A stretch of 64,000 nt of DNA, taken from contig NC_016620.1 in the NCBI RefSeq assembly GCF_000210915.2, positions 186,001 to 250,000 of the forward strand, given 5' to 3'. Shown in pieces: positions 2,264-6,477 of this stretch. Below the pieces are notes generated by a model that was given only the letters and a program-made list of their open reading frames with translations, was not told where the DNA came from and ran no database searches. The position numbers and the translations under genes are program-made. This DNA comes from Halobacteriovorax marinus SJ (GTDB taxonomy: Bacteria > Bdellovibrionota > Bacteriovoracia > Bacteriovoracales > Bacteriovoracaceae). Each line of letters starts with the position of its first letter. The first letter of the stretch is position 1.

Positions 2264-3892
2264 ATGAAGCTTGTTAAATTACTCCTATTATTATTTTTAA
2301 TTCCTGCTACTGCGTTTGGTGGGGTTAATCTTAAGAACGGAAACTTCTACATTTCGTACACAGACATTATCGTCCCAGGTGGGGGACACGATTTAGAGGT
2401 CGTAAGAACTTATAACTCTAAGTCGACAGAGAAGGGTTGGTTCGGTTTTGGTTGGGGTTCTGATTATGAAACCTTTCTAACTGTTTCCGCTGATGGTTCC
2501 GTGGTTATCCACGAAAACGGAAGTGGTGCCAATACTAGATTTGTTCCAAAGGAAGCAGTTGATCCAGTATCTGCGGCTCAAAGAATTATTGAGGCAATGA
2601 GAAAGAGAACAAGTGTTACAGAGCAAGTTGCAAAGTCTCTAAAAGTTAAACTTTCAAACGATGCCGAGCTTAGACAAGCTTATGCTAGAAAGTTTAATGT
2701 TAAGGCTCAGCTAGCAAACGGAACAGTACTATTCTCAAATACGAGAGGACTACAACAAGTACACAAAATCAAAGATGGTTTTAAGCGTGTTTATAATGAC
2801 GGTAAAGTTCAGTTCTTTAATAAGGACGGTAAACTTGCCAAGATTAAGGACAAGCACGGTTATACAATCTCTTTTGAGTATAAGAATGGAAACCTTTTAA
2901 AGATTAAAGATTCTCAAGCAAAGCAATTATTCTTTGAGTGGTTTCAAAATGGAAGAGTTAAGAGTATCTCTTCTACAGCGAATAAGAAAACAAGCTATAA
3001 ATTTGAAGGTGATGATCTTGTAGAGTCTAAGGACGTTGCAGGAAATGTATTTAAGTATTCATACGATGCAAATCACAATATGAAGTCGATTACTTATTCA
3101 GATGGTTCAAAAATGGAAGTGGACTACACTCCAAGAACGCAATTTGTTCAATCTGTAAAAAGTAGAAGTGGTGATTTAACAAGCTATAAGTATGACTCTA
3201 ATCCGAAGAACCCAGACTTCCATTACTGGACAACTGTGACTAAGAAGTCTCCAAATGGAAAATCTGTTTCAAATAAGTATGAGTATGAAATCAAAGCTAG
3301 ACCAGATGGTTCTCAGTACACTTATAGAATTTTAACTCAAATCAATGGGCTAAAAACTGAGACGATTTACTCTGAGTGTTGTTCACTTCCTCTTAAAATT
3401 ACGAGAGGAAATCATGTGACTTCTTTTGAGTACAACAAGAAGGGACTCTTAACTAAGAAGACTTCTACTAAAGGTGATTATATTGAGCTTTCTTACCACA
3501 AGAAGTTTAATAAGATTACAAAAGTTGTAAACAAGAAGGGATGGACTAACTTTAAGTATGATGAGAAGAGTGGAAACTTAGCTAAGGCAGAGAACAGCTT
3601 TGGGAAGTCAGTTCTTTTAATCTACGATAGAAAAGGTCGTATCACTAAGATGCATGACTATGATAAGAATACTAAGAAGAAGAGATCTCTATCATTTGTT
3701 TACAATGCTCAAGGTAAGCCAGTAGAAATCAAGATGGACTCAATTGGAAAAATTAATGTTCAGTATGATAACTATGGTGAGATTAAGAAAGTAGAATCGA
3801 AGGCCGGACATAAAATGGCACTTCAAGTAACTCAGGCGTTTCAATCATTACTTGCGATTGTTAAGCCAGCAGGAGTTAATCTTAATTTATAA
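2264..3892 (+). CDS. secreted RHS/YD-repeat protein with DUF6531-like N-terminus
   Basis: This 542-residue protein has a clear signal peptide (MKLVKLLLLLFLIPATAFG). After it comes a DUF6531-like start (NGNFYISYTDIIVPGGGHDLEVVRTYNS, then a GWFGFGWGSDYE stretch). Then follow many degenerate YD/RHS repeats of the form G.v..y.YD..Gnl..i, from about residue 165 to 520. RHS repeats build a beta-barrel cocoon in larger Rhs and Tc toxins. This protein is short for the family, and the repeat run ends within about 20 residues of the stop. It has no RHS core DPxG-type cleavage motif and no C-terminal toxin domain. It follows the Tad genes, so a cell-surface or secreted role is possible but inferred. An AAAGGA ribosome site is at 2251-2256. 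Confidence 0.8.
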   Translation: MKLVKLLLLLFLIPATAFGGVNLKNGNFYISYTDIIVPGGGHDLEVVRTYNSKSTEKGWFGFGWGSDYETFLTVSADGSVVIHENGSGANTRFVPKEAVDPVSAAQRIIEAMRKRTSVTEQVAKSLKVKLSNDAELRQAYARKFNVKAQLANGTVLFSNTRGLQQVHKIKDGFKRVYNDGKVQFFNKDGKLAKIKDKHGYTISFEYKNGNLLKIKDSQAKQLFFEWFQNGRVKSISSTANKKTSYKFEGDDLVESKDVAGNVFKYSYDANHNMKSITYSDGSKMEVDYTPRTQFVQSVKSRSGDLTSYKYDSNPKNPDFHYWTTVTKKSPNGKSVSNKYEYEIKARPDGSQYTYRILTQINGLKTETIYSECCSLPLKITRGNHVTSFEYNKKGLLTKKTSTKGDYIELSYHKKFNKITKVVNKKGWTNFKYDEKSGNLAKAENSFGKSVLLIYDRKGRITKMHDYDKNTKKKRSLSFVYNAQGKPVEIKMDSIGKINVQYDNYGEIKKVESKAGHKMALQVTQAFQSLLAIVKPAGVNLNL

Positions 3893-4003: not shown

Positions 4004-4207
4004 ATGAAAAAAATTATTGCCATGCTTTTAGTATTAGGACTTTCATTCCCAGTGATGGCAGACGGTTCGTCAGATGGTGGCCTTGGGCAAAACACTGATG
4101 ATAACGTAGAGTGTAGCCAGATCTTTCACGGTACAGCTCCGAAGCAGGAAGATGTAAGAGAAGGGGATAGCACTGCACCTCAACCGGGTACAGATGTTGG
4201 TAAGTAA
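4004..4207 (+). CDS. short secreted protein, unknown function
   Basis: This is a 67-residue protein. It has a signal peptide ending at about VMA (residues 17-19) and a mature part of about 48 residues that is acidic and rich in Gly/Ser, with one cysteine in VECSQIFHG. It is similar in size and layout to the two paralogues at 4388 and 6233, but it lacks their NQSTQAR motif, so any kinship is weak. A TATAAT lies 28 bp upstream, an AGGAG ribosome site directly before the ATG, and a strong terminator after the stop, so it is a single-gene unit. I do not recognise a family. Confidence 0.7.
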   Translation: MKKIIAMLLVLGLSFPVMADGSSDGGLGQNTDDNVECSQIFHGTAPKQEDVREGDSTAPQPGTDVGK

Positions 4208-4234
4208 TCTTAAGTAAAATGTTTAATGATATAG

Positions 4235-4259
4235 ACCCAGGCAATGCCTGGGTTTTTTT
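4235..4259 (+). terminator. rho-independent terminator
   Basis: The stem CCCAGGC (4236-4242) pairs with GCCTGGG (4246-4252) across a 3 nt loop. Seven T residues (4253-4259) follow. It ends the single-gene unit at 4004. Confidence 0.92.
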
Positions 4260-4280: not shown

Positions 4281-4301
4281 ACTGTCTAAAGAATAGACTC
4301 T
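4281..4301 (+). promoter_or_regulatory. palindromic activator site, imperfect copy
   Basis: ACTGTCTA (4281-4288), 5 nt, then TAGACTCT (4294-4301). The left arm is identical to, and the right arm 6/8 identical to, the perfect palindrome at 6098-6118. Its centre lies about 50 bp before the -24 GG of the sigma-54 promoter at 4339. This suits a binding site for a sigma-54 activator (an enhancer-binding protein). The assignment is inferred from position and repetition. Confidence 0.55.
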
Positions 4302-4338
4302 CTTCAAATGATAAGTAATTGAAATTCAAACACGTAGT

Positions 4339-4355
4339 TTGGCATGATTTGTGCT
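4339..4355 (+). promoter_or_regulatory. sigma-54 (-24/-12) promoter
   Basis: The sequence TTGGCATGATTTGTGCT matches the RpoN consensus YTGGCACGRNNNTTGCW at all but two fixed positions. The GG (4341-4342) and GC (4353-4354) are exactly 10 nt apart. It lies 32 bp before the ATG of the secreted protein at 4388. No good sigma-70 pair is seen in the same gap. Confidence 0.75.
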
Positions 4356-4387
4356 CCTTAAAGTAGTATTACATATGGGAGAAAATT

Positions 4388-4591
4388 ATGAAAAAACTAT
4401 TATCTATGACAGCTTTATTATCACTTCTAACGCTTTCTTTCTCTAGCTATGCTGGTGTGGGAGAAGGGTCTACAGAGTGTATTAGAAACCAATCTACGCA
4501 AGCGAGAGTTGCAGGCAAATCTAAAGCAGCAAAGGAAGAAACAGTAAAAGAATCTTCTGAGCAAGAGAAATCATCTTCAGTTCAAAAATAA
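4388..4591 (+). CDS. short secreted single-Cys protein, paralogue A
   Basis: This is a 67-residue protein. It has a signal peptide (cleavage likely after SYA, residue ~22), then the motif VGEGSTECIRNQSTQAR and a Lys/Glu/Ser-rich charged tail. The protein from 6233 has the same layout and the matching motif VGESDTSCIKNQSTQAR, so the two are clearly paralogues. The mature part has one cysteine, so an intermolecular disulfide or attachment is possible. A sigma-54 promoter and an upstream palindrome precede it, and GGGAG (4377-4381) is the ribosome site. Function unknown; the shared motif is the only handle. Confidence 0.8.
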   Translation: MKKLLSMTALLSLLTLSFSSYAGVGEGSTECIRNQSTQARVAGKSKAAKEETVKESSEQEKSSSVQK

Positions 4592-4605
4592 TAAGCTAAT
4601 TTTCT

Positions 4606-4624
4606 GGGCCAAGTTCCTTGGCCC
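4606..4624 (+). terminator. terminator-like hairpin
   Basis: GGGCCAAG (4606-4613) pairs perfectly with CTTGGCCC (4617-4624) over a 3 nt loop. Only a weak T-rich stretch (tatatt) follows, so termination may be partial. It sits before the true start of the aldehyde dehydrogenase at 4693. Confidence 0.6.
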
Positions 4625-4692
4625 TATATTCCATCCGTACATTCCTATTTATCAGTGCTATAATTTCTTATCTATTCAAATTGGAAGTAAGA

Positions 4693-6072
4693 ATGTTTGA
4701 CAGTATTGAAGCATTAATTAAGACACAGAGAGAGCATATTTTAAGTGGTCTGCATATAGACTATAAGAAGAGAATAGAGCTCTTGGATAAGACTAGTGAG
4801 GCCATAAGTAAGTATGAGAAAGATATTCTCGATGCCCTTTCTAAGGACTTGGGAAAGCCAAGTTACGAGTCTCAGATATCAGAAATACTCTTCGTCCAAA
4901 ACGAAATAAGACATATTAAAAAAGGTCTTAAGAAGTGGATGAAAAAAGAGAAGGTAAAAACCCCTCTTCTCCACTTTCCGGCCAAGAGTTATATTCAATC
5001 CGAAGCCTATGGGAGTGTTCTTATCATTGCTCCTTGGAATTACCCATTTCAACTTCTTTTCTCCCCTTTGGTGGGAGCAATTGCAGCAGGAAATAGGGTC
5101 ATAGCAAAACCTAGTGAGATCTCTTCCCACACTTCAGAAATTATAGCGAAGATTATTTCCGAAAGTTTTGAGAGCGAATATATTGGCTGTGTCACCGGTG
5201 GAGTTGAAGAGACGACTTATCTCCTAGATCAGAAGTTTGACTATATATTCTATACTGGAAATGGTGTCGTCGGGCGAATCGTAATGGAGAAGGCCTCGAA
5301 GAACTTAACTCCTGTGACTTTGGAGTTGGGAGGAAAGAGTCCTACTTTTGTATTTGGCGATAACGATCTTGATCTAGTTGCAAAGAGAATAATATCTGGG
5401 AAGTTCTTCAATGCTGGGCAAACGTGCATTGCTCCTGACTATATACTAGTTCAAGAGGATAAGTATGAATCCCTAGTGGATAACTTAAGGAAATATATTC
5501 TCAAGTTCTACGGAAAAGATCCAAAAAAGAGTAAAGACTATGGAAGAGTTATTAACTCTCGTCACTTGGAGAGATTGAAGTCGTATATCGAGTCTGAAGA
5601 TATTCTCTGTGGTGGTGAAGTTGATGAACAGGAGAGGTATCTCGCCCCAACATTGGTAGGGGCTTCTGGAAGTTCTTCGGTAATGAGAGAAGAAATCTTT
5701 GGTCCAATTCTTCCCATCGTAAAAATGACCAATTTAAAAAGTGCTATAGACTTTGTAATAGAGCGTGATAAGCCATTGGCAATGTATATCTTTAGTCGCG
5801 ACGAGAAGATTGTTAACTCTATTCTTAAGCGTGTAAGTGCTGGAGGGGTAACTATTAACGATACTCTTATGCATATTACAAATGATAAGTTGCCCTTTGG
5901 TGGAGTTGGTGAGAGTGGAATGGGCGGCTATCACGGAAAGAGCTCGTTTGATCTTTTCTCACATAAGAAGTCTATTTTTAGGGCCTCTACTCGAATTGAT
6001 CCGCCGCTAAAGTACCCTCCTTACTTTGGAAAGCTTAAGATTGTGAGATGGTTATTGAGGTTCTTTGGCTAG
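4693..6072 (+). CDS. aldehyde dehydrogenase, class-3/coniferyl type
   Basis: This 459-residue NAD(P)-dependent aldehyde dehydrogenase oxidises an aldehyde to its acid. It has the PWNYP cofactor motif, ELGGK with the general base E211, and the nucleophile C245 in NAGQTC. The spacing and length match the short ALDH3/fatty-aldehyde type. The C-terminal ~15 residues (IVRWLLRFF) are hydrophobic and basic, as in membrane-attached members. The ATG at 4693 was chosen because GGAAG at 4683-4687 is well placed. The frame is open further up to 4618, but that stretch runs into the terminator hairpin. Both flanking genes encode sigma-54-driven secreted paralogues. The substrate cannot be told from sequence. 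Confidence 0.92.
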   Translation: MFDSIEALIKTQREHILSGLHIDYKKRIELLDKTSEAISKYEKDILDALSKDLGKPSYESQISEILFVQNEIRHIKKGLKKWMKKEKVKTPLLHFPAKSYIQSEAYGSVLIIAPWNYPFQLLFSPLVGAIAAGNRVIAKPSEISSHTSEIIAKIISESFESEYIGCVTGGVEETTYLLDQKFDYIFYTGNGVVGRIVMEKASKNLTPVTLELGGKSPTFVFGDNDLDLVAKRIISGKFFNAGQTCIAPDYILVQEDKYESLVDNLRKYILKFYGKDPKKSKDYGRVINSRHLERLKSYIESEDILCGGEVDEQERYLAPTLVGASGSSSVMREEIFGPILPIVKMTNLKSAIDFVIERDKPLAMYIFSRDEKIVNSILKRVSAGGVTINDTLMHITNDKLPFGGVGESGMGGYHGKSSFDLFSHKKSIFRASTRIDPPLKYPPYFGKLKIVRWLLRFFG

Positions 6073-6097
6073 AAATTTCACTTTGTGGGAGCTTTAT

Positions 6098-6118
6098 ACT
6101 GTCTAAATAATAGACAGT
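6098..6118 (+). promoter_or_regulatory. perfect palindromic activator site
   Basis: ACTGTCTA (6098-6105), 5 nt, TAGACAGT (6111-6118): a perfect 8-bp inverted repeat. A copy with the same left arm and 5 nt spacer is at 4281-4301. The centre is about 70 bp before the -24 GG at 6178. The other copy sits about 50 bp before its own, a difference of about two helical turns, so both would face the same side of the helix. Probable enhancer-binding-protein site. Confidence 0.62.
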
Positions 6119-6175
6119 GTAAAAATAAATTACAGAGTAGATATAGCTAAATCACTTAAAATACATAAGATAATT

Positions 6176-6192
6176 TTGGCACGATGAATGCA
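6176..6192 (+). promoter_or_regulatory. sigma-54 (-24/-12) promoter, near perfect
   Basis: TTGGCACGATGAATGCA matches the RpoN consensus YTGGCACGRNNNTTGCW at all but one fixed position. GG (6178-6179) and GC (6190-6191) are exactly 10 nt apart. It lies 40 bp before the ATG at 6233. Confidence 0.85.
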
Positions 6193-6232: not shown

Positions 6233-6421
6233 ATGAAAAAGCTAGTATTAATCACAGCAATCATCGCAGGTTTTTCTTCAACTTCATTTGCCGGTACAGT
6301 AGGTGAGTCTGATACAAGTTGTATTAAGAACCAATCAACTCAAGCTAGAGCAAGTAAAGAAGTGAAAGAAACAGAAGTTCAAGTTGAGCAAGAGAAGACA
6401 AGCAAAGACAAGCAATCTTAA
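6233..6421 (+). CDS. short secreted single-Cys protein, paralogue B
   Basis: This is a 62-residue protein with a signal peptide (cleavage likely after SFA, residue ~20). The mature part starts with TVGESDTSCIKNQSTQAR and continues as a Lys/Glu/Gln-rich charged tail. It is a paralogue of the product at 4388: the VGE, single Cys and NQSTQAR positions are all conserved, while the tail has drifted. It is driven by the best sigma-54 promoter in the window, has the ribosome site GGAGG (6223-6227) and ends at a strong terminator. No known family was recognised. A surface-attached or secreted structural role is possible but unproven. Confidence 0.82.
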   Translation: MKKLVLITAIIAGFSSTSFAGTVGESDTSCIKNQSTQARASKEVKETEVQVEQEKTSKDKQS

Positions 6422-6448
6422 GAATCAACCATATGTAATAATCAATGA

Positions 6449-6477
6449 AGCCGAGTTAATATGACTCGGCTTTTTTT
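6449..6477 (+). terminator. rho-independent terminator
   Basis: AGCCGAGT (6449-6456) pairs with ACTCGGCT (6464-6471) over a 7 nt loop, and the T-run extends to 6477. The stem overlaps the stop codon of the converging minus-strand gene. Confidence 0.92.

Follow-up and report, generated by a model that had tools for sequence, protein, structure and literature searches.

A family-wide sigma-54 regulon of exported proteins in Halobacteriovorax marinus, with a candidate enhancer-binding regulator

Two sigma-54 promoters in a conserved peptide cassette

The window analysed here is a stretch of 64,000 nucleotides from Halobacteriovorax marinus SJ (G000:C1:186001-250000), the genome of which has 3,437,906 bases in two contigs (3,435,933 + 1,973). 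It carries two genes for short peptides on either side of an aldehyde dehydrogenase gene, each peptide gene being preceded by a palindrome and a -24/-12 site (Table 1). The peptides are paralogous (43% identity, E=4.7e-8) and both N-termini are signal-peptide-like, bearing out the preliminary description of them as secreted paralogues. A predicted terminator hairpin isolates the 4388 unit from the preceding gene. The same hairpin parts 4388 from a further short peptide (4004-4207), the third in this region, whose start also resembles a signal peptide; it lies just 5' of the pair and has no palindrome or sigma-54 site. Also near the cassette is a secreted 542-aa RHS-repeat/DUF6531 protein (2264-3892; Pfam E=3e-21 and 9.4e-15), its gene preceded by ATPase and membrane genes resembling a TadA/TadB-type pilus region.

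Table 1. Features of the peptide cassette (positions in the window) and promoters assigned to the regulon (C1 positions in the genome).
Feature	Position	Strand	Comment
Intrinsic-terminator-like hairpin	4233..4255	+	consensus scan only
Upstream palindrome (putative enhancer) ACTGTCTAAAGAATAGACTCT	4281..4301	+	2 mismatches to 21-mer; matrix score 19.8
IHF-like proximal element GATAAGTAATTGA	4310..4322	+	30 bp 5' of -24; presumed IHF identity
Sigma-54 -24/-12 site TGGCATGATTTGTGC	4340..4354	+	39 bp 3' of palindrome
67-aa secreted peptide, paralogue 1	4388..4591	+	signal-peptide-like start; no Pfam family
Aldehyde dehydrogenase, between both peptides	4693..6072	+	Pfam PF00171, E=3.9e-85; conserved beside the pair; no promoter of its own found
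Upstream palindrome (putative enhancer) ACTGTCTAAATAATAGACAGT	6098..6118	+	perfect; matrix score 25.8
IHF-like proximal element GCTAAATCACTTA	6146..6158	+	31 bp 5' of -24; presumed IHF identity
Sigma-54 -24/-12 site TGGCACGATGAATGC	6177..6191	+	59 bp 3' of palindrome
62-aa secreted peptide, paralogue 2	6233..6421	+	signal-peptide-like N-terminus
Terminator-like hairpin after second peptide gene	6448..6472	listed on -	TTTTTT follows on + strand
Members, window pair	C1:190281, 192098		
Other members	C1:1059231, 1068668, 1930977, 2292339, 2294948, 2370929, 2865134, 2870345, 3046659, 638818, 2492248		
Member	C1:684102		-12 reads GG instead of GC
Weaker member	C1:1790559		

GG and GC are exactly 10 nt apart in both -24/-12 sites, as had been described; the sites themselves stand, and only their limits, given earlier as 4339-4355 and 6176-6192, were off by a trivial one base at each end. 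The first palindrome is indeed imperfect and the second perfect, with no others in the window. Measured from the palindrome end to the T of TGG, their distances from the promoters (39 vs 59 bp) differ by 20 bp, in line with the earlier estimate of about 20 bp. Two palindromes compare with 0.36 expected from shuffled sequences, and at least two arise in 4/100 shuffles. By itself, the -24/-12 pattern is no more frequent in the window than expected (29 loose matches vs 28.6). When the window is scanned with matrices, a good palindrome is found 5' of a good sigma-54 site at these two places only.

The peptide pair is kept about 1.8 kb apart in six relatives (G001-G004, G008 and G010), where an aldehyde dehydrogenase 49-72% identical to that of H. 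marinus adjoins it; in G019, one 54% identical adjoins a single such peptide. In orthologues of the pair, a -24/-12 site lies 31-51 bp 5' of the start, and the palindrome, degenerate in many cases (some with 2-3 mismatches), is found at 38-40 or 56-59 bp, or at 48 bp in the more distant relative G013. The cassette of peptide, aldehyde dehydrogenase and peptide, with its paired sigma-54 promoters, is conserved across genera.

Extent and targets of the regulon

Further pairs of palindrome and -24/-12 site are found both in this genome and in its relatives, which speaks strongly for the preliminary reading; their absence would have told against it. The combined pattern, with the palindrome in phase, occurs 8 times in this genome vs 0 for a reversed-pattern control, 60 times vs 1 in 25 family genomes (counts in which related sequences are not independent), and once vs 1 outside the family. 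The strict palindrome itself is counted 51 times vs 1 for its control in 16 family genomes. About 14 promoters of this type are found in H. marinus (Table 1); they were identified by palindrome searches allowing a few mismatches and sigma-54 scans of targeted stretches, and members with degenerate palindromes may be missed. Enrichment is limited to exact or near-exact palindrome copies and to the combined pattern: by itself, the looser form TGWCTANNNNNTAGWCA (1 mismatch) occurs in the genome no more often than its control (38 vs 38). The family genomes G005, G006, G011, G012, G014 and G024 have no exact combined match, and some of them have palindromes at longer spacings. Loci L006, L008, L010, L013, L016, L021 and L023 were rejected as members, either having no sigma-54 site in phase or carrying the palindrome inside a coding region. 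The genome encodes rpoN (PF04552 at C1:2674170, E=6.1e-66).

Except for the weaker member, the products of the members start like exported proteins or lipoproteins. A simple signal-peptide rule is passed by 58/67 targets of promoters from all genomes, several of the failures being start-codon picks. Pfam matches among the tested targets are almost absent, with a weak metallopeptidase match in one lipoprotein. The targets at L067 (G015) and L164 (G003) apparently form one family of small proteins, of surface or pilus-like type (MKSLKSLLIAMLVMGANTYAATSGTLVLKGQVP / MKKTLIATAAMVIMANPIFAATQGTLLLQGQVD). The enhancer-binding protein (bEBP) layout proposed for the two window promoters is supported by the further members, the helical phasing and the family-wide pattern, and comparison of the sequences strongly supports the existence of a sigma-54 regulon of exported proteins throughout the family.

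Helical phasing of the palindrome

Spacings between the end of the palindrome and TGG fall into four groups, 38-40, 48-50, 57-59 and 67-69 bp. When each distinct downstream gene contributes a single spacing (n=63), the strongest periodicity is at 9.9 bp (R=0.70); R was never above 0.46 in 5000 uniform draws. Between orthologous promoters the palindrome shifts by about 10-30 bp with its phase kept: the spacing is 38, 39, 56 or 58 by species for the 4388 gene, 39, 55 and 57 for the gene of a 240-aa protein, 69, 59 and 59 for that of a 122-aa protein, and 39 and 69 for one lipoprotein gene. Spacing classes are swapped while phase is maintained, as a looping activator requires.

An IHF-like third element

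An element overlooked in the preliminary description lies between palindrome and -24/-12 site. A motif search of the spacers found TCTAAGTNCYTRA 29-31 bp 5' of TGG in 44/68 promoters (score 552 vs 345-358 for shuffles); it is present in the main spacing classes, and its usual position is empty in 24/68 promoters. In reverse complement the element shows a partial likeness to the IHF consensus, reverse-strand matches to WATCAANNNNTTR scoring 5.84 of 9 at the usual place vs 4.82 for shuffles. Together with the -24/-12 pattern it occurs 124 times in the family vs 8 in controls, in many places without a palindrome, and 12 times vs 4 outside. Its near-constant position, its presence without the palindrome and its YAANNNNTTGAWW shape favour IHF, and on the same grounds a second bEBP half-site was rejected. 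The element may be an IHF-like bend site that assists sigma-54 promoters generally in these bacteria. At G000:C1:296117, 2129420 and 2307756, for example, a sigma-54 promoter has the IHF-like element and no obvious palindrome match; such palindrome-free promoters presumably form a larger sigma-54 network under other bEBPs.

A candidate regulator

Seven strong sigma-54 activator domains are found in the genome. The bEBP-like proteins at G000:C1:2731385, 2930012 and 2140161 have a degenerate GAFTGA loop (e.g. DFTQA) and are probably unable to contact sigma-54. The regulator had been left open in the preliminary description; a candidate can now be proposed from the palindrome in its own promoter, namely the group C bEBP at G000:C1:3272958 (L130:2991-4562), here called EBP-C. 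This protein carries PF00158 (E=2.9e-69), a Fis-type HTH (HTH_8, E=3.6e-10) and the AAA+ loop GSFTGA. Its orthologues were fetched with one peptide pattern, the records being mostly Bacteriovoracaceae, Halobacteriovorax or Bdellovibrionales MAGs.

Among the bEBPs of the genome, only the EBP-C gene family repeatedly has the palindrome in its own promoter. With at most 2 mismatches, it lies upstream of 9/15 EBP-C orthologues vs 1/31 other bEBP genes (p=4e-5, Fisher, the sequences being phylogenetically non-independent). Scored with a matrix from target palindromes only, EBP-C upstream regions have a median of 2.95 (78 loci) vs -11 for random windows and -9.7 for shuffles, a match inflated by letters common to the palindrome and the FliA -10; the maximum for the 31 other bEBP genes is -1.7. 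A conserved TTAGACA-like stretch following the shared letters falls outside the FliA consensus. EBP-C is likely the regulator that reads the palindrome.

The EBP-C gene promoter has the form TTAAG/TAAAG/TCAAG-N15/16-GCCGAWAA, in which GCCGAWAA is a FliA-type -10. A FliA/sigma-28-type promoter score of at least 11/13 is reached in 88% of the 78 upstream regions vs 0.9% of shuffles. The palindromes here are mostly imperfect; the best site lies three bases 5' of GCCGAWAA in 43/78 loci, and over the -35 in about 11 more, where two copies, L295 and L298, are near-perfect. An activator that covered the -10/+1 or -35 of its own gene would act there as a repressor; self-limitation is therefore the most natural interpretation, and EBP-C probably limits its own synthesis. 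In freshwater Bacteriovorax-type orthologues (L325-L345), the -35 is overlaid by TGTCAAG-N6-GACA-like repeats and the -10 is followed by GTTAGACGA, an arrangement that looks like a double operator that has diverged.

The sensor part of EBP-C is modelled with confidence (AlphaFold, pLDDT 90). In this genome it scores 16.7 bits against the PocR domain (PF10114), below the curated cut-off of 23.9, and the domain is matched in 43/63 orthologue sensor parts (E<=0.01, best 2.5e-8). A fold search with the model gave weak GAF/IclR/CodY-like matches with low TM-scores, loosely supporting a small-molecule sensor fold. The confident model and the PocR matches among orthologues suggest that a small-molecule signal is likelier than phosphorylation.

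Alternative explanations

With the -24/-12 pattern at background and two palindromes arising in a few of the shuffles, the window could be read as showing a coincidental pairing of palindrome and promoter. This is already refuted by the relatives, with their family-wide count of combined patterns, the phasing, the conservation at orthologues and the uniformly exported products, and coincidence has next to no probability. The palindrome might instead serve as operator for a classical regulator, a repressor or activator outside the bEBP class, the sigma-54 promoters being driven by an unrelated bEBP. Its location over the -10 or -35 of the EBP-C promoter is that of a repressor site; however, a fixed phase 39-69 bp 5' of -24/-12, with whole turns tolerated, is characteristic of an activator that works by looping, not of a repressor, and when the spacers were searched no second conserved distal motif appeared besides the IHF-like one. 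A classical operator is accordingly very improbable.

The same regulon could also be governed by another bEBP that reads the palindrome, EBP-C being a mere target. The candidates are the response regulators of groups A (C1:2933907) and B (C1:3366340) and the FHA-type bEBP of group E (C1:503402). The small genome G009 has the motif and four strong bEBP domains, groups B, C and E all among them, and this co-occurrence therefore does not single out EBP-C; nor is HTH specificity readable from the sequence here. However, no palindrome is found upstream of any A, B or E gene, group A is absent among the bEBPs listed for G009, and the palindrome stays the same across genera, whereas the recognition-helix region of group E differs from one genus to another. 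Control by one of these proteins is considered unlikely, though clearly less so than a classical operator. If the assignment to EBP-C failed, the regulon would still stand.

Proposed circuit

It is considered probable that one bEBP controls a sigma-54 regulon including both window promoters, and that this is likeliest EBP-C, made under FliA and limiting itself. In this circuit, the palindrome TGWCTA-N5-TAGWCA would be the enhancer; at its upstream distances of about 39, 49, 58 or 68 bp, the bEBP bound to it would always be on the same helix face. The IHF-like site, usually about 30 bp 5' of the -24, would probably bend the DNA so that the bEBP reaches E-sigma54. FliA would direct EBP-C synthesis in the motile attack phase, the EBP-C start being predicted just after GCCGAAAA. 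A small-molecule signal at the PocR-like domain would then render EBP-C active, and active EBP-C with sigma-54 would give rise to the exported proteins and lipoproteins.

Relation to known systems

Classical NifA/NtrC/PrpR-type promoters consist of UAS, IHF site and -24/-12, with phase-dependent looping. The promoters described here share the distal palindrome, the intervening bend-site-like element and the -24/-12 site, but differ from the NifA, NtrC and PrpR systems in palindrome sequence, regulator and targets. In Enterobacteria, GlrR (QseF) of the glmY/glmZ system has an inverted repeat TGTC(N)10GACA 5' of the sigma-54 promoter (PMC4987338). The corresponding sequence here is TGTC-TANNNNNTA-GACA, that is TGTC(N)9GACA, a half-site likeness that may be chance. 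The half-site gap is 9 and not 10, EBP-C has a PocR-like sensor and no receiver domain, and the targets are exported proteins, whereas those of GlrR are small RNAs. Membership of the GlrR/QseF regulon was rejected on the gap and the missing receiver domain.

The usual flagellar order is sigma-54, then sigma-28, and the proposed order of FliA, bEBP and sigma-54 appears to be its reverse. While the layout is classical, what is new is the proposed wiring in H. marinus, an obligate predator of bacteria, with FliA at the top, a bEBP beneath it and sigma-54 last. The literature searched reports no sigma-54/bEBP regulon for either Halobacteriovorax or Bdellovibrio, nor a tier of this kind below FliA. 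In Bdellovibrio bacteriovorus, about two thirds of the attack-phase promoters that have been mapped carry TTAAG-N16-CCGATA, and about a third are without a FliA motif or known regulator (PMC3627812). The EBP-C promoter matches this type; unlike in the Bdellovibrio programme, FliA here seems to feed a second tier, the bEBP/sigma-54 regulon.

The FliA-type promoter of EBP-C, the organism and the analogy with Bdellovibrio (PMC3627812) are consistent with the predation- or stage-specific switch suggested in the preliminary description. A fuller scheme is put forward tentatively: a relay specific to predators of the Bacteriovoracaceae type, in which FliA, the attack-phase sigma factor, would produce a PocR-type bEBP. 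This activator would respond to a small molecule, perhaps prey-derived, would switch on exported proteins for attack or invasion by way of sigma-54 and an IHF-like bend, and would repress the FliA promoter of its own gene. The analysis provides a defined motif, some 14 genes, a candidate regulator with a name and an order in which the factors are predicted to act. Uncharacterised exported proteins of predators are thereby marked as co-regulated, and become testable as predation factors.
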